Part shown: piece after piece, positions 10,869 through 17,877 of the stretch
Layout: every line of letters starts with the position of its first letter
Position numbering within the stretch: the first letter of the stretch is position 1
Assembly: GCA_947170415.1 (NCBI GenBank)
Contig: CAMVTN010000002.1
Coordinates: forward strand, 1-53,087
Origin: an uncultured Lachnospiraceae bacterium
Lineage (GTDB): Bacteria > Bacillota > Clostridia > Lachnospirales > Lachnospiraceae
DNA: 53,087 nucleotides
Reading direction: 5' to 3'
The notes under the pieces: generated by a model
What the model saw: only the letters and a program-made list of their open reading frames with translations
Told to the model about the DNA's origin: nothing
Database searches by the model: none
Program-made: the position numbers and the translations under genes

Positions 10869-10923
10869 ATTAACACAATAGAAACAATTCTGAAACAAAA
10901 TATTGTTGAAGAGAATTTATATT
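10869..10923 (+). promoter_or_regulatory. Predicted response-regulator promoter of the two-component operon
   Basis: ATTAACA (10869), GAAACAA (10881) and GAAACAA (10892) lie on an 11-bp phase. Exactly 17 nt after the last repeat unit (ending 10900) is TATATT (10918-10923), so the repeats occupy the -35 position. The same arrangement, with 25 of 32 positions identical, precedes the efflux operon at 13102-13156. Tandem repeats of one helical turn are typical OmpR/PhoB-family sites. A separate TATAAT at 10843-10848 could mark another start. Confidence 0.55.
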
Positions 10924-10963
10924 TCATCTGAGATCCTGAACAATGGATGGGAAGGAGATTCGG

Positions 10964-11332
10964 GTGAAAGAGCAGCAGTTTGAGTATAGCTACGATTCTG
11001 AGATCGCAAAAGAAGTTCGTGATATCCAGAAAAAGTATATTATGGAAGATAAAAATGCCTTGGATCGGATGAGGCTTATCGATAGGAAAATAGAGAATCG
11101 TGCACGTATAGTCTCGGTTATTTCAGGAATGATGGGAACGCTGGTACTCGGTGCCGGTATGAGCCTGATCCTTGTGTGGGGCGGTATTTGTTTTGCAATA
11201 GGGATCATAGTAGGCTTAGTAGGAATATGTATTATTTCTGCAGCTTATCCGATATATAGGAAAACGGTTACAACGCTGCGTAAAGAACATGCCGAGGAGA
11301 TAAATGCTCTGGCAAAGAAGATATTGAGATAG
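10964..11332 (+). CDS. Small two-helix membrane protein heading the two-component operon
   Basis: 122 residues from the GTG at 10964, which has AAGGAG 6 nt upstream; an in-frame ATG at 10943 lacks such a site. The first half is charged and helical (DIQKKYIMEDKNALDRMRLI). Two membrane segments follow near residues 50-68 and 72-95, then a basic/acidic tail. The gene ends 10 nt before the response regulator and shares its promoter. A role as an accessory or sensor-partner protein is a guess from position; I do not recognise the family. Confidence 0.7.
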   Translation: MKEQQFEYSYDSEIAKEVRDIQKKYIMEDKNALDRMRLIDRKIENRARIVSVISGMMGTLVLGAGMSLILVWGGICFAIGIIVGLVGICIISAAYPIYRKTVTTLRKEHAEEINALAKKILR

Positions 11333-11342
11333 GGGGATTGAC

Positions 11343-12020
11343 GTGTTTAACATATTCCTTGTAGAAGATGATAAAAACTTAAATAGGACATTGGCTGAAT
11401 ATCTGAAATTAAAAGGGTATGAAGTTAAGGGGTTTTTGTCCGCGGCGGAAGCACTTAGTGAGATGAGTGGCAGAAACGTGGATCTCGTCATATCTGACAT
11501 TATGATGCCGGGAATGGATGGGTTTGAATTTGCAGGTGCAGTTCGATCTGTGAATGATAATATACCGATCCTTTTTCTAACTGCCCGGGATGATTTTGAG
11601 GCAAAGCAGCTTGGCTATATGGCAGGAATAGACGATTATATGACAAAACCTGTCAGTTTTGAAGAGTTGAATCTGCATATCGGGGCTTTGCTAAGAAGGG
11701 TAAAGGCAGCTGAGAGCAAAAAACTTCAGATAGGGTCTCTTACGATGGATATGGAAGAACATGTTGCTCTTGTTGGAAACGAAGAAATCCCTCTTACACC
11801 GCGTGAATTTAATATACTGTTTAAGCTGCTTTCCTTCCCAAAGAAAACGTTTACCCGTGGCCAGCTGATGGATGAGTTTTGGGATCTTGAGTCTGAAACG
11901 ACACTTCGGGCAGTTGATGTATATATGACAAAGCTCCGTGATAAGTTTTCATCATGTGATGACTTTAAGATCGTGACGGTACGAGGACTTGGGTACAAAG
12001 CTGTACCAAAGGGAGAATAG
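11343..12020 (+). CDS. OmpR-family response regulator
   Basis: 225 residues, GTG start behind AGGGGG. Receiver domain 1-115 with acidic pocket EDD (8-10), phosphorylation site Asp52 in DLVISDIMMPG, Thr at LFLTARD and Lys at DDYMTKPV. The winged-helix DNA-binding domain (about 125-222) shows LTPREFNILFKLL and the TLRAVDVYMTKLRDK recognition region. Its partner kinase starts 3 nt later. Likely targets are its own operon and the downstream efflux operon, both of which carry the phased GAAACAA repeats. Confidence 0.96.
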   Translation: MFNIFLVEDDKNLNRTLAEYLKLKGYEVKGFLSAAEALSEMSGRNVDLVISDIMMPGMDGFEFAGAVRSVNDNIPILFLTARDDFEAKQLGYMAGIDDYMTKPVSFEELNLHIGALLRRVKAAESKKLQIGSLTMDMEEHVALVGNEEIPLTPREFNILFKLLSFPKKTFTRGQLMDEFWDLESETTLRAVDVYMTKLRDKFSSCDDFKIVTVRGLGYKAVPKGE

Positions 12021-12023
12021 CGA

Positions 12024-13076
12024 ATGCATAAACGGAAGAATAGCTTATTTTCGTTTCGCCGATATATCCTTTATTTTATAGTGCTGTGTATTGTAATAAG
12101 TATTTCATCTTTTTTGCTTTTACGTTCTGTACATGTGGACAGAAGTGTCATAGGCGATAGAGCGGTATATGTATTCTTAAATATCATTTTTCTGAGTTTT
12201 GTCCTTAGTATGCTTGATGGAGTCTGGAGGCGCGTCCAGATAAAGCAGCCTGTAGGTAAGATTCTGGAGACTACAGGGAGGCTTGCAAAGGGAGATTTTA
12301 AGGCACGTATTGAAGTAACCGACTCAATATTCGGGTCTAATGAACTTACTGATATTTCGGAGCATATCAACAAGATGGCTGAGGAACTTTCAGGAATCGA
12401 GACTATGCGAACGGATTTTGTGTCCAATGTGTCTCATGAGATCAAGACACCTTTGGCTGTGATCAATAATTATACGGAACTATTGAAGGAGCCGGGAATT
12501 ACTGATGAAGAGCGCAGACAATATGTAGAAGCGATATCGCAATCGGTAAATAGGTTGTCAGATCTTGTGACCAATATATTGCGTCTGAATAAGCTTGAAA
12601 ATCAGCAAATCTATCCGGATGAAAAGAAGTATGATCTGGGAGAACAGCTATGTGAATGTCTGGTCGGATTTGAAAAAATCTGGGAAGAAAAGAATATAGA
12701 ACTTGAAACAGACATTGATGATGATGTATTGGTAGAGAAGGATCCTTCACTGCTGACACTTGTCTGGAATAATCTCTTATCAAATGCGTTTAAGTTCACT
12801 CCGGATGGAGGAAAGGTGACTGTTGTCGTAAAAAGAGCCGGTGATGAGGCGGTAGTTACAGTAGGTGATACCGGGTGCGGTATTTCCGCTGAAAGCGGTA
12901 AACATATCTTTGATAAGTTTTATCAAGGAGATACGTCCCACGCAACCAGAGGAAACGGGCTTGGTCTTGCGCTGGTGAAGCGGGTAATAGAAATCTCAGG
13001 TGCGCGGATCAATGTTAGCAGCGAGGTTGGTAAAGGGACAACGATAATTGTCAGGCTTGATGCAAGTGAACCGTGA
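12024..13076 (+). CDS. Membrane sensor histidine kinase
   Basis: 350 residues. Two membrane helices (about 13-35 and 49-65) enclose a very short external loop of about 15 residues, so it may sense within the membrane or through a partner rather than bind a ligand outside. A HAMP linker (about 68-120) is followed by the dimerisation helix with His138 in VSHEIKTPL. The ATPase domain has WNNLLSNAFKFT, VGDTGCGIS and GNGLGLALVKRV. The short sensor loop resembles kinases that respond to envelope-active compounds (established for BceS-like, intramembrane-sensing kinases; similarity here is only architectural). Confidence 0.95.
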   Translation: MHKRKNSLFSFRRYILYFIVLCIVISISSFLLLRSVHVDRSVIGDRAVYVFLNIIFLSFVLSMLDGVWRRVQIKQPVGKILETTGRLAKGDFKARIEVTDSIFGSNELTDISEHINKMAEELSGIETMRTDFVSNVSHEIKTPLAVINNYTELLKEPGITDEERRQYVEAISQSVNRLSDLVTNILRLNKLENQQIYPDEKKYDLGEQLCECLVGFEKIWEEKNIELETDIDDDVLVEKDPSLLTLVWNNLLSNAFKFTPDGGKVTVVVKRAGDEAVVTVGDTGCGISAESGKHIFDKFYQGDTSHATRGNGLGLALVKRVIEISGARINVSSEVGKGTTIIVRLDASEP

Positions 13077-13101
13077 CTGATGACACAGTTCTAAGAAGCT
13101 A

Positions 13102-13156
13102 ATTAACAAAACAGAAACAAAACAGCAATAAAACAGAAAATCAGAAACCTTATCCT
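13102..13156 (+). promoter_or_regulatory. Predicted response-regulator promoter of the efflux operon
   Basis: ATTAACA (13102), GAAACAA (13114), GCAATAA (13125) and GAAAATC (13136) recur every 11-12 bp. AAAACAG occurs at exactly 13108, 13119 and 13130. TATCCT at 13151-13156 sits 17 nt after position 13133, the same spacing as in the copy at 10869-10923. The distance to the start codon (68 nt) is also close to that copy (63 nt). Confidence 0.55.
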
Positions 13157-13201: not shown

Positions 13202-14668
13202 ATGCATAGGAGAATAGTGGCAGCGATAATGCCGTTGATTTTTACCGTATCTATGTTTACAGGATGCAGCGGAGAAAAGGTTGAACCTGTTCTTGACCCC
13301 GGGATTACGGTAAATGTGGAAGAAGTTGGAAAGGGATGCCTTGAAAAAGAGGGAAAGTATGTGGCTGTCGTGTCTGCAGCTGAAAATGTAGAAGTGATCC
13401 CGTTGGTATCCGGAAAGGTAGAGAAGATAAATGTTCAGGCGGGGCAGACTGTCAGTGCAGGAAGTGTACTGTGTAATATTGATGACTCGTCAGCGAAATA
13501 TACATTAGAGAGCGCAAAAGCCAGTTATAAATCATCCGTGGATTCTGCTGAGGCAACAAAAAACAGTAATTACATTCTTGCTGCGGAACAGGAACAGAAT
13601 AATATTGAGTCACAGCAAAAGACGGCAGAGGGCTATCAGGCGCAGATCGAAGAAGTGAATGCTGATAAGGGATTGTTGTCATACAGACTTAGTGAAGCAC
13701 AGAGAGCCATGGATGAAGCAGAAGATGAATATAGAAGTGCGAAGAAAAAGCTTGAAAGAGCACAAAGGGAGTCTGATTCGACAGTAGGCGACTCATCAGA
13801 TATAGATAGAAAAGTTTCAAAACTCCAGGATAAGATGGCGGAAAAAAAGAGCGAATATCAGTCAAAAAAGAGTACCTATGAAAGTCTTTGCAATTCATAT
13901 GATACTTCTCAAAAGGGCTATGATGATAAGATCGCATCACTGGAGCGGTCACAGGAGGCTGCACAGCAGAATATACAGCATTCTCAGGAGATACAGGCTA
14001 TCAATAATACGATCACTTATCGTGATAAGCAAAAGAATGCTGAAAATTCCGTTGCTTCTGCAAAGATTTCACTGGAACAGGCGGAATATCAGTTATCGCT
14101 TTATACGATAACTGCACCGATGTCCGGAAAGATAGAAGAAGTTAATGTTACAGAAAATAATTATGCTTCCTCCGGTCAGCCGGCGTTTGTGATCACTTCT
14201 GATGATGAGAAGATCGTTACTTTTTATGTGACGGAAGATGTGAAAGACAGTCTGGAATATGGTCAAAAAGTTACCTGTTCTTATCATGATGAAGAATATG
14301 AAGGCAATATCACAGAAATCGGTACTGCGGTGGATGAAGAAAAGGGTCTTTTCAAGATAAAGGCGGCGATGCCGTCCTTGAAGCAGGCATCTAACGGTGT
14401 ATCGGTAGAAGTCTCTCTTGTGACTGAAAAAACAGATTCTGCAGTGATCGTGCCTTTTGATTCGGTAAATTATGATAACGGAAACCCATATGTATATCTT
14501 TTGAACGAAGCTGGAACAGCTGTCAAACGTGATATTGCTGTTGATATACATACGAGTGACAGAGTTGCTGTTGTTGATGGACTGAAGGATGGAGATAAAG
14601 TAATAACCAGCTGGTCCGCATCTCTTAGGGATGGTGTCAGTGTAAATGCAGTTTCGGAGGTTAGATAA
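13202..14668 (+). CDS. RND-type efflux periplasmic adaptor (HlyD/AcrA family), lipoprotein
   Basis: 488 residues. The signal peptide ends in a lipobox-like MFTGC, with Cys22 the probable lipidation site. A biotinyl-lipoyl half-motif (EVIPLVSGKVEKINVQAGQT, about 62-81) is followed by an unusually long coiled coil (about 105-290, rich in Gln, Lys and Glu). The second lipoyl half is LYTITAPMSGKIEEV, then a beta-barrel and membrane-proximal domain. Such adaptors link an inner-membrane pump to an outer path; in Gram-positives they assist export of drugs or lipids. It overlaps the pump gene by 1 nt (TAATG), so the two are translationally coupled. Confidence 0.92.
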   Translation: MHRRIVAAIMPLIFTVSMFTGCSGEKVEPVLDPGITVNVEEVGKGCLEKEGKYVAVVSAAENVEVIPLVSGKVEKINVQAGQTVSAGSVLCNIDDSSAKYTLESAKASYKSSVDSAEATKNSNYILAAEQEQNNIESQQKTAEGYQAQIEEVNADKGLLSYRLSEAQRAMDEAEDEYRSAKKKLERAQRESDSTVGDSSDIDRKVSKLQDKMAEKKSEYQSKKSTYESLCNSYDTSQKGYDDKIASLERSQEAAQQNIQHSQEIQAINNTITYRDKQKNAENSVASAKISLEQAEYQLSLYTITAPMSGKIEEVNVTENNYASSGQPAFVITSDDEKIVTFYVTEDVKDSLEYGQKVTCSYHDEEYEGNITEIGTAVDEEKGLFKIKAAMPSLKQASNGVSVEVSLVTEKTDSAVIVPFDSVNYDNGNPYVYLLNEAGTAVKRDIAVDIHTSDRVAVVDGLKDGDKVITSWSASLRDGVSVNAVSEVR

Positions 14669-17652
14669 TGAATATTCAGAAATTGATATTGAAACGTCCG
14701 GTATCGGCATTTCTGATCATAGCAGCCATTGTAATATTTGGTATCACGTCCATCCTGGGAATTCGAATGGAATATTTTCCGGATCTGGAAATGCCCATGC
14801 AGGTCGTGTCTATCGTTTATCCAGGTGCAGATGCTGAGACTATAGAATCAATGGTCACCGAAAAAGTAGAGGATCTTGGGAAATCTTTATCTAACATCAG
14901 CTCGGTGGCTTCAAATTCATATGAAAACTACATGGTGGTGCAGTTTTCGTATAAGTATGGAACTGATCTTAATGAAGCCTATGATGACCTGAAAGCGGAA
15001 CTCGACAGGCTTAAGAGTGATTTGCCGGATGAGTGTGAAAACCCTGTCATCATGACAGTAAGTATTGATAATGAGGCAACTATATCACTTTCTCTTATGG
15101 GAGAAGAAGGAGTAGATGTTTCAAAATATGCTACAGACACACTGCTTCCAGAACTCGATAATATTGCAGGTGTAGAAAAGGCAGAGGTATCAGGAGAGAA
15201 AGATCCATATGTGAGGATCGTTCTTAATGAGGAGAAAATGAACCAATATGGTCTCACGATCTCTAAGGTTGCAAATTATGTATCATCGGCTGATTTCAAT
15301 ATTCCGGCAGGCAGCATGGATCTTGGAAACAGGGATATGAAAGTCTCTGCGAGGACGATGGTAAACTGGGAGGAGGATCTTCCGGAAGTCCCTCTTTACA
15401 CGGGTGACGGGGCATTGGTACGACTGGGAGATGTGGCCGATTTTATAAATCTATATGAAGATGACGCTGATTCTTTCAGTCGTTATAACGGAACAGAAAG
15501 TGTACTTGTAAATGTTACTGCAAAAAAAGATGCATCAACTATAGAGGTCTGCGACAAAGTAACACAAATCGTGGAGCAGATGTCAGATGGTAACTATACC
15601 TACAATATTATCCATTCATCAAAAGATGACATTATAGATAACCTGATGGAGGTATTAAAGACCCTTGTAGAGGGTGTCCTGTTTTCCATGCTTGTCCTGT
15701 TTGTTTTCTTTGGAGATTTGAAAGCGTCCCTTATTGTAGGAAGCAGTATGCCATTATCTCTTCTTGCAGCTATGATTCTGCTTAATGGCGCGGGCATCAA
15801 TATGGATCTCATGACCGGAACCGGACTTATAATCGCGATAGGAATGATCGTAGATAACTCTATTGTTATCCTTGAGAGCTGTTTCAGGATTAAAGATGAA
15901 GGTAAGTCTTTCTATGATGCAGCAGTGAAGGGCGCCGGTACTATGATGATGTCAGTGCTTGGCTCAACGCTTACTACTATTGTTGTTTATGCACCGCTCA
16001 CAACAACACAGGGAATGTCAGGAGCGATGAATCAGCCTCTTTGCTGGAGTATCATCTATACTATGACAGCTTCTCTTATCAGTGCGGTGTCGGTTGTACC
16101 ACTGTTTTTCTATCTGGTAAAACCTAAGGAGAAAAAGAATCTCCCGATCAACAAGATACTTGACGTACTTGGAAAAGGTTATGAAAAGATAATGGGAGTG
16201 CTTTTGAAGCACCGGATCAAAACCGTAGCAGCAGTTTTTGCAATGATGGTAGCGGCTGTTTTTATGGCATCAACGCTTCATGTGGATCTTTTTCCCAGCA
16301 GTTATGACGGCAGCATAGAGACAACTGCAAGGTTTAGACCCGGAACGAAGCCTGAATTTATCGATAAAAAGATTTCAGATATTGAAAAAATCCTTCTGGA
16401 GGATAAAATATTTGACCGTGTGAATCTGTCAGTTGATGGAGAAACAGCATCTATAAAGGCATATGCTGTAAATAATAAGAGAAGCAGCGAAGATGCGGCT
16501 GCATATTACACAGAGAAATTCCGTAACTATACTGATATGGATATTTCTGTAATGCCACTTGGCACAGCAGGTGGTCTTGCATCTCTTATGAGCACCGGAA
16601 ACACCGTGAAGGTGACTCTTGCAGGAAAAGACCTTGATTCGCTTGCAGAAGGATGTGATATCCTTGCAGAAAAGATCGTGAAGGTTCCGGGACTCTTGAA
16701 AATCGATAATGAGCTTGAAACAGAAGAAACTGCAGCAAGGATCGTTGTTAATCCGCGTCTGGCAGTGAACTATGGTCTGACACCGTCCGCAGCTTCTATG
16801 GAAGTATACTATGCGCTTAGCGGTGTCAAGGCCGATAAGTTCTCTGAAGACGGAGAAGAGTATGATGTGAAGCTTGAATATCCGGAGGGGAAATATAAAT
16901 CACCTGAGGATCTGCTTCAAAAAGAAATATCGTTGTCTGATGGAACTAAGATAACTCTTAGCGACATAGCAGGACTTGAGTACGTGAACCTTCGTAGGGA
17001 GATCAAAAGGCTCGACGGATACTTTACAGCGGAAATAGTAGCTACAACAACAGAAACAGCAAAATATTCTGCAGCAAGCGAGATACAGAAGATTGCATCA
17101 GAGATTTCATATCCGGAAGGTGTGACCGTAGCAGAAAGTACTATGGATAAGACACTTAAGGAAGAAATGACGAAGATGGGAAATGCACTTTTTATGGCTG
17201 TGGTCCTGGTTTTCCTTGTAATGGCGATCCAGTTTGAGTCAGTACGTTTCTCGTTAATGGTAATGGCATGTATTCCGTTTAGTGTGATAGGATCATTTAC
17301 ACTGATGTTCCTTTTTGCGCAGCCTATATCTATGATGGCTATGATGGGATTTTTGATGCTGGTCGGAATTGTTGTAAATAACGGAATACTACTGATAGAT
17401 TCTATAAATATCTTTAGACAGACAATGCCGCTGGAAGAGGCTTTGCTTAAGGCAGGAAGTGTCCGGCTTCGCCCGATCCTCATGACTACTCTTACCACTG
17501 TGCTCTCGATGCTGCCGATGGTGCTGTCTGCAGCGAGCGGAATGAGTATGATGCGCGGAATGGGGCTTGTGATCATAGGAGGACTTCTTGCATCGACATG
17601 TATTGCAATGTTCCTTATGCCGATACTTTATTCGTTGATCGGAAAGGAATAA
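14668..17652 (+). CDS. RND-family efflux pump
   Basis: 994 residues with the RND pattern of one N-terminal helix, a large loop (about 35-320), a helix bundle, a second large loop (about 530-830) and a second bundle. The start MNIQKLILKRPVSAFLIIAA and FPDLEMPMQVVSIVYPGADAE are typical of the hydrophobe/amphiphile branch. The proton-relay helix reads GMIVDNSIVILES in the first half and GIVVNNGILLIDS in the second. It is driven by proton (or Na+) influx; the substrate is unknown. Control by the adjacent two-component system suggests an envelope-active compound. No terminator is evident after it before the next promoter. Confidence 0.94.
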   Translation: MNIQKLILKRPVSAFLIIAAIVIFGITSILGIRMEYFPDLEMPMQVVSIVYPGADAETIESMVTEKVEDLGKSLSNISSVASNSYENYMVVQFSYKYGTDLNEAYDDLKAELDRLKSDLPDECENPVIMTVSIDNEATISLSLMGEEGVDVSKYATDTLLPELDNIAGVEKAEVSGEKDPYVRIVLNEEKMNQYGLTISKVANYVSSADFNIPAGSMDLGNRDMKVSARTMVNWEEDLPEVPLYTGDGALVRLGDVADFINLYEDDADSFSRYNGTESVLVNVTAKKDASTIEVCDKVTQIVEQMSDGNYTYNIIHSSKDDIIDNLMEVLKTLVEGVLFSMLVLFVFFGDLKASLIVGSSMPLSLLAAMILLNGAGINMDLMTGTGLIIAIGMIVDNSIVILESCFRIKDEGKSFYDAAVKGAGTMMMSVLGSTLTTIVVYAPLTTTQGMSGAMNQPLCWSIIYTMTASLISAVSVVPLFFYLVKPKEKKNLPINKILDVLGKGYEKIMGVLLKHRIKTVAAVFAMMVAAVFMASTLHVDLFPSSYDGSIETTARFRPGTKPEFIDKKISDIEKILLEDKIFDRVNLSVDGETASIKAYAVNNKRSSEDAAAYYTEKFRNYTDMDISVMPLGTAGGLASLMSTGNTVKVTLAGKDLDSLAEGCDILAEKIVKVPGLLKIDNELETEETAARIVVNPRLAVNYGLTPSAASMEVYYALSGVKADKFSEDGEEYDVKLEYPEGKYKSPEDLLQKEISLSDGTKITLSDIAGLEYVNLRREIKRLDGYFTAEIVATTTETAKYSAASEIQKIASEISYPEGVTVAESTMDKTLKEEMTKMGNALFMAVVLVFLVMAIQFESVRFSLMVMACIPFSVIGSFTLMFLFAQPISMMAMMGFLMLVGIVVNNGILLIDSINIFRQTMPLEEALLKAGSVRLRPILMTTLTTVLSMLPMVLSAASGMSMMRGMGLVIIGGLLASTCIAMFLMPILYSLIGKE

Positions 17653-17780: not shown

Positions 17781-17877
17781 TGATTTGTGACTGGTAAGGC
17801 AGGCAAGGCTCACGCAGATAATACTGACTGTAGATTATTCAGTATAAGTGTATGCGTATAGCCGCCTGCCTTTTTAT
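17781..17877 (+). promoter_or_regulatory. RAT antiterminator/terminator RNA switch ahead of licT
   Basis: The RNA antiterminator word lies at 17781-17812: TTGTGACTG, loop, GGCAGGCAAGGC. It matches the LicT/SacY-type target (UUGUUACUG...CAGGCAA). It overlaps the left arm GGCAGGC-AA-GGC (17798-17809) of a terminator whose right arm GCC-GCCTGCC (17861-17870) is followed by TTTTT. The structures exclude each other, so binding of the antiterminator protein allows read-through into its own gene. Confidence 0.85.

Follow-up and report, generated by a model that had tools for sequence, protein, structure and literature searches.

Encoded in one direction on the + strand of a 53,087-nt stretch (positions 1 to 53,087 of contig CAMVTN010000002.1; assembly GCA_947170415.1, an uncultured Lachnospiraceae bacterium), the whole of which is referred to here as the window, are a SurA-like protein, a small membrane protein (SMP), an OmpR/PhoB-family response regulator (RR), a sensor histidine kinase (HK), an RND-type periplasmic adaptor and an RND permease. 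Two similar sets of direct repeats, which we call box 1 and box 2, stand 5' of the SMP/RR/HK operon and of the adaptor/RND operon, respectively, and raise the question of which regulator binds them. An original prediction, made from the letters of the window, held that the RR encoded between the two boxes controls itself and the pump. This idea is supported by the presence of the box before congeneric pump operons, before relatives of the RR and before some SMP genes, and by a paralogous regulator/pump pair that has a different box. Since boxes of this kind stand at the same places in relatives, we consider it very probable that both are OmpR/PhoB-type operators at the -35 position, through which the RR controls itself, the SMP and the RND pump.

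Box 1 (10870..10898) is made up of TTAACA at 10870 and GAAACAA at 10881 and 10892, and box 2 (13103..13131) of TTAACA at 13103, GAAACAA at 13114 and GCAATAA at 13125, all on the + strand. The original prediction had listed the first unit as ATTAACA at 10869 and 13102, the remaining units as given here, and 25 of 32 positions as identical between the promoters; sequence and alignment bear this out in full, and reading unit 1 as TTAACA brings the phase to exactly 11 bp. Its description of the spacing to the -10 was right in one respect, the equality of the two promoters, but the hexamers TATATT (10918..10923) and TATCCT (13151..13156) begin after a gap of 19 nt from the last 7-nt unit (10899-10917 and 13132-13150) and not of 17 nt; the 17 nt, as well as the 63 and 68 nt to the start codons, hold only with a 9-nt last unit (GAAACAAAA and GCAATAAAA) and with the GTG at 10964 as the first start. 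With the initial A of the unit 3 core as reference (AACA in box 1, AATA in box 2), TATATT and TATCCT both lie at 24 nt, the former in the same register as in relatives. A fourth unit is degenerate in both promoters: at 10903..10909, a position assigned from the register, the window has TTGTTGA where relatives have a -35-proximal half-site, and at 13136..13142, 8 nt 5' of the -10, it has GAAAATC where congeners have GAAACCC, CAAACCC or TAAACCC. A consensus promoter scan found no -35/-10 pair using TATATT at 10918 or TATCCT at 13151, although for the latter the scan would require five of six matches in the -35. Three features of an OmpR/PhoB-type class II activator box are found here: direct repeats of about 11 bp, a box that replaces the -35 element at a fixed distance from the -10, and a regulator with a Trans_reg_C domain.

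Congeners, too, carry the box at the pump. Genome G031, of the same genus, has adaptor, RND permease, RR and HK in one direction, and G036 has adaptor, RND permease and RR, the contig ending inside the RR; pump and an RR of the same family thus share one operon in both. Four 11-bp units lie 5' of the adaptor in each, and the -10 (TATCAT and TATACT) keeps the window register, with 24 nt between it and the initial A of the unit 3 AACA. A pump-type pattern comprising units 2 and 3 and TANNNT in register, which was built after reading the host assembly (G000), G031 and G036, gave six matches in five of 48 congeneric genomes and none when reversed. The matches are both window sites, G031, G036, G043, where the box precedes a 256-codon adaptor frame (a fragment), and G042, where contig C28 (L254:4480-4640) has kept the box, a ribosome site and a start codon intact in front of a short, broken adaptor remnant. 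Neither an RND of this pump clade nor an RR of this family was found in G043, which is 65% complete, or in G042. The pumps of G000, G031 and G036 are mutually nearest (53% identity, next best 43%), and a tree of the 12 best pumps groups them with full support. Upstream of other Lachnospiraceae adaptors, the box occurs in none of 26 usable regions (29 were taken, L130 and L137 being left out as wrongly cut and L118 as too short; eight starts were extrapolated from a partial match).

How far the likeness of the two sites exceeds expectation can be gauged from pattern and matrix searches. A three-unit pattern with up to three mismatches matches the window twice, against 0.02 expected; with up to two mismatches it matches the 2.32-Mb assembly twice, at the two boxes, and the reversed control not at all. 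As the pattern was derived from the two sites, these two tests are post hoc, which applies less to matrices built from other genomes. A matrix of units 1-3 from the pump promoters of G031, G036, G042 and G043 places the window sites first and second at 27.4 and 20.7 bits (53 kb, both strands), where the maxima of 100 shuffles average 13.8 and reach 20.9; with the -10 columns added, the scores are 30.5 and 26.3, against a largest shuffle value of 20.7. For this matrix, unit 4 was dropped after its degeneracy in the window had been seen, and two of its four genomes had come from a search with a pattern partly drawn from the window; G031 and G036 were found via the RR, independently of the box. 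A matrix from these two genomes gives box 2 29.2 bits over all columns (largest of 100 shuffles 22.0). Restricted to units 1-4, it gives box 2 23.3 and box 1 15.0 (ranks 1 and 2; shuffle 95% point 18.2); with units 1-4 and the -10, 29.4 and 18.6 (ranks 1 and 2; 95% point 17.9, largest 23.2); and with units 1-3, 17.4 and 22.8 (95% point 17.9, largest 20.5), box 1 being top-ranked in the window with units 1-3 and lower with unit 4. Box 2 thus fits the congener pump promoters throughout, at full length, and box 1 fits them in units 1-3 and the -10. Looser patterns were also run: in seven genomes, two units plus the -10 gave 25 matches against 14 in the control, the two read in context standing at known RR promoters, and a loose three-unit pattern gave 14 against 4 in the same genomes. 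Of the seven three-unit matches that were read, the two window sites, G031 C50, G036 C47 and G062 C52 stand before such operons; those on contigs C41 and C124 of the window's own genome were discarded, as each falls within an open reading frame.

The RR itself provides a second line of comparison. Its relatives number 109 (29 and 80 loci), 107 of them with at least 100 nt upstream, and the search covered 300 nt upstream. A two-unit form of the box, AACA-N7-AACA, precedes 59 of the 76 relatives with at least 55% identity, 2 of 12 at 45-55% and none of 19 at 35-45%; in finer bands, the counts are 4/6 at 65% or more, 45/48 at 60-65%, 10/22 at 55-60%, 1/6 at 50-55% and 1/6 at 45-50%. Dinucleotide shuffles yield means of 0.02-0.46 per band (from a count still including the wrongly cut L013 and L106, which the band counts omit), and other gap lengths yield 0-3 per band. 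The relatives are akin, so that the counts do not represent independent events. At +24, 58 of 63 such sites have a TA...T, the next commonest offset accounting for 16. The consensus of these promoters is approximately AAAACGCAAACAAAACTTTAACATTTnTGTGnTATAAT, in which the distal unit corresponds to unit 3 of the window and the proximal TTTAACA falls on the window's degenerate position (10903 and 13136). As to the -10 itself, the T and the G of an extended -10, one base 5' of the hexamer, each occur in 53 of 64 two-unit RR promoter rows (including the wrongly cut L013), and both window promoters and the four congener pump promoters are without this TG. Three loci assigned to Treponema/Spirochaetaceae (L092, L093 and L111) encode RRs 57-60% identical to that of the window, which suggests transfer or mis-binning; upstream of these and of L097, AACA-N7-AACA occurs in the opposite orientation.

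To see where else the box stands, we turn to the genomes of 35 of the 80 loci. These mostly had a box already seen, and the scan therefore tests other locations and not frequency. The box with its -10 matched 48 times in 30 of the 35 genomes, against 7 for the reversed control. Read in context, 36 distinct boxes comprise 29 that precede an RR, 2 that precede an SMP gene and 5 that precede neither, and the 29 RRs include 27 of this family (second and third paralogues in one genome among them) and 2 of 30-31% identity. Sites that are weaker (two units) or have diverged, those of the window among them, would escape this pattern. With 31 of 36 boxes adjoining RR or SMP genes, the regulon looks small and local, consisting of two-component genes, sometimes the SMP and, within this genus, the pump. 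At the distant RRs (L244:2906; L245:1300 and 3529), a similar AACA box lies 5' of a -10, and in L245 a second copy precedes the gene after the kinase. The window's own genome offers a further comparison, as a second RR/HK pair adjoins an RND pump on contig C61, its RR being 44% identical and divergent from the adaptor. Toward the adaptor this pair has GTTTAT-N5-GTTTAT with TA...T exactly 10 nt on (L148:2392-2425), an arrangement found at 9 of 9 congeneric loci (L148, L017, L021, L023, L025, L026, L027, L029 and L030) and at none of 11 other RR loci examined, including L016, which belongs to another family and also has a divergent adaptor. AACA-N7-AACA is found at none of the nine GTTTAT loci, so that each of the two regulator/pump pairs has its own 11-bp box.

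Several results weigh against control of both operons by this RR. No RND or adaptor match lies near the RR at any of the 80 regulator-relative loci, which confines the pump link to this genus, and 12 of the 22 relatives at 55-60% identity have no box within 300 nt, in the case of L007-L009 because the operon begins further up. Unit 3 of box 2 has GCAATAA instead of AACA. In the window's own genome, the looser two-unit pattern shows no enrichment (9 matches, control 10). With all columns of the G031/G036 matrix, box 1 scores only 10.9, at rank 4, which is not significant, and a matrix of 57 two-unit RR promoters from other genera does not recognise either window site significantly (-16.0 and -11.5); both boxes have a degenerate -35-proximal unit. 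With only the columns of the distal unit and of the -10, the 57-promoter matrix ranks 10894 first (14.3) and 13127 fourth (9.6), neither above shuffles (2-mer blocks; mean maximum 12.6, 95% point 18.2). The similar box at two RRs of 30-31% identity means that the half-site is not entirely exclusive to the family. Finally, the window RR is not sister to those of G031 and G036, a one-clade grouping being rejected (p-AU 0.002, from the approximately unbiased test).

This last result bears on the history of the locus. In the RR tree, the window RR groups with L033-L035 (100/99), apart from the RRs of G031 and G036; for the HK, a one-clade grouping of G000 and G031 is not rejected (p-AU 0.09). The clades tested were named after the first tree had been seen, and the window branch is long. 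As the RRs are not sisters, although the pumps belong to one clade and their boxes are alike in kind, these pumps seem to have been served by more than one member of the RR family with a common operator, a view that is moderately supported at best. One could further speculate, tentatively and with the odds somewhat against it, that a Clostridia two-component family, in many members of which an SMP may give feedback to a short-loop kinase, possesses one operator, and that different members can for this reason take over the same pump.

Other explanations of the boxes were weighed alongside control by the encoded RR. A different, global OmpR-type regulator, for instance a WalR/YycF or PhoP homologue with similar TGTTAA/TTAACA half-sites, could bind both boxes and control both operons, and predicted YycF sites in Staphylococcus epidermidis do include TTAACACTACCTTAACA (PMC5405149), just as the box near the two RRs of 30-31% identity is similar. 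A global box, however, is expected before many genes, whereas here 31 of 36 precede an RR or SMP gene (in genomes chosen for such RRs); box and RR family travel together, even at the second and third paralogues in one genome, and none of the 19 RRs below 45% identity has the box. We therefore regard a global regulator as unlikely. It is likewise quite unlikely that the encoded RR is a repressor which, before its release by a signal, blocks its own promoter and the pump. The boxes do overlap the polymerase site, and the data would allow either sign of regulation, but the finding that neither -10 is paired with a -35 hexamer is as expected for activator-dependent promoters, and the box-to-(-10) distance, fixed in 58 of 63 sites, is as in class II activators, which are characterized by a fixed distance between box and -10. 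That the repeats are phased A-rich tracts which bend DNA or serve as UP elements, with no specific regulator, would account for A-rich units recurring at each helical turn, but hardly for their location beside one RR family or for the enrichment of the 7-nt gap and not of others (in the 35 genomes, 48 matches against 7 in the control, compared with 6 against 4 for a 6-nt gap), and we consider it very improbable. Chance likeness of two AT-rich promoters, with which the lack of two-unit enrichment in the own genome and the low full-length G031/G036 score of box 1 would agree, is made least credible of all by the matrix tests together with the assembly-wide three-unit search, the congener pump-type pattern and the RR-relative counts.

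Returning to control by the encoded RR, we picture the phosphorylated protein binding head-to-tail to (T/G)(T/A)AACA half-sites spaced by 11 bp on one face of the helix. By analogy with PhoB, the units would be occupied by tandem dimers and sigma contacted at the -35 position, so that the RR would take the place of the absent -35 element and recruit RNA polymerase to a -10 at fixed distance. From box 1 it would drive SMP, RR and HK, amounting to positive autoregulation, and from box 2 the adaptor/RND operon, and a signal at the short-loop kinase would then raise regulator and pump together. The comparisons show the repeats themselves, their register relative to the -10 and their conservation 5' of regulator, SMP and pump genes; binding by this particular RR, its dependence on phosphorylation, activation as opposed to repression, and the signal are what we infer.

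The genes that the two promoters would serve are described next. The SMP (10964..11332) is predicted to begin with GTG at 10964, preceded by the Shine-Dalgarno sequence GGAAGGAG (10950-10957), which makes this start better placed than the ATG at 10943; its similarity to DUF2207_C is under that family's cut-off. SMP relatives occur at 63 of 80 two-component loci (window 10964-11332; L033-L112), before or after the two-component genes and sometimes in two copies, and the protein could conceivably serve the HK as accessory or feedback partner, as SaeQ does. At several of the loci read, a membrane protein of about 300 residues lies between HK and SMP, two of these proteins having no Pfam family at cut-off. 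The RR (11343..12020) contains Response_reg and Trans_reg_C domains (PF00486, 67.3 bits), and its nearest named relatives are from Butyrivibrio and another Lachnospiraceae metagenome-assembled genome (69-71% identity). It is not assigned as a YycF orthologue (123.3 bits on NF040534, cut-off 340), a PhoB equivalog (151.4 bits on TIGR02154, cut-off 296.2; 165.2 on NF053854, cut-off 270) or BaeR, scoring under that cut-off as well. The HK (12024..13076; HAMP, HisKA and HATPase_c) has hydrophobic segments at residues 15-33 and 47-65, and the connecting loop, at about 13 residues, is too short for a sensor domain. The adaptor, of HlyD/RND_mfp type (13202..14668; RND_mfp 158.4 bits, cut-off 94.9), and the AcrB-type permease (14668..17652; ACR_tran 615.7 bits, cut-off 28; nearest relatives in G031 and G036 at 53%) together form the adaptor and ACR_tran permease pair of an RND efflux-pump operon. 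The permease is followed, instead of by an outer-membrane channel, by a 302-aa frame at 17852, the family of which was not searched. The host assembly, of a gut/rumen-type bacterium, is fragmented, spans 2.32 Mb and is 76% complete.

Little work seems to exist on RND pumps, or on their control, in gut and rumen bacteria of the Gram-positive type. Among the papers listed on RND and response regulators in Lachnospiraceae, Butyrivibrio and Clostridium (for Clostridium, 10 of 54), none showed such a system, going by titles and abstract openings. The locus supplies a concrete candidate operator, a regulator and a testable regulon of regulator, small membrane protein and pump, and a private 11-bp box for each regulator/pump pair is a simple rule with which regulators could be matched more easily to pumps in genomes of uncultured bacteria.

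Among known systems, Gram-negative two-component systems that control RND pumps include BaeSR, acting on mdtABC, and others. Here, too, RR and HK adjoin an adaptor and an RND permease, whereas the lineage is of Gram-positive type, the permease is followed by the 302-aa frame, and the RR falls short of the BaeR cut-off. In its operator the system resembles PhoB, whose sites have an 11-bp period and which is autoregulated. PhoB of E. coli binds head-to-tail to direct repeats in a box that spans the -35 region, as PMC3348028 and PMC4415409 describe. The pho box and ours share an OmpR-family regulator, head-to-tail direct repeats and a box over the -35, and they differ in the half-site, here (T/G)NAACA, in the four-unit pump box of congeners and in an RR that stays under the PhoB equivalog cut-offs. 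TTAACA/TGTTAA-type half-sites with an 11-bp period are also known from the PhoP box of B. subtilis. WalR/YycF has TTAACA/TGTTAA half-sites, separated by N5 and with the same period (predicted site TTAACACTACCTTAACA, in PMC5405149). In contrast to WalR/YycF and PhoP, control here would be local and not global, units 2 and 3 are GAAACAA/GCAATAA, and the RR is under the YycF cut-off. SaeRS of Staphylococcus aureus, as PMC5083920 reports, uses the 11-bp repeat GTTAAN6GTTAA, has an autoinduced promoter before auxiliary genes, and includes in its operon a small membrane auxiliary protein and, in SaeS, a kinase with a very short loop. The SaeRS site as such does not account for the boxes, TTAA being present in unit 1 only and units 2 and 3 reading GAAAC/GCAAT. 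With SaeRS the locus shares an 11-bp repeat, a box before a putative auxiliary gene, a short-loop kinase and a small membrane protein in the operon, and it departs from SaeRS in its half-site core and in having a pump as target. Judged by these comparisons, the putative operator is new and conserved, while its type is familiar.

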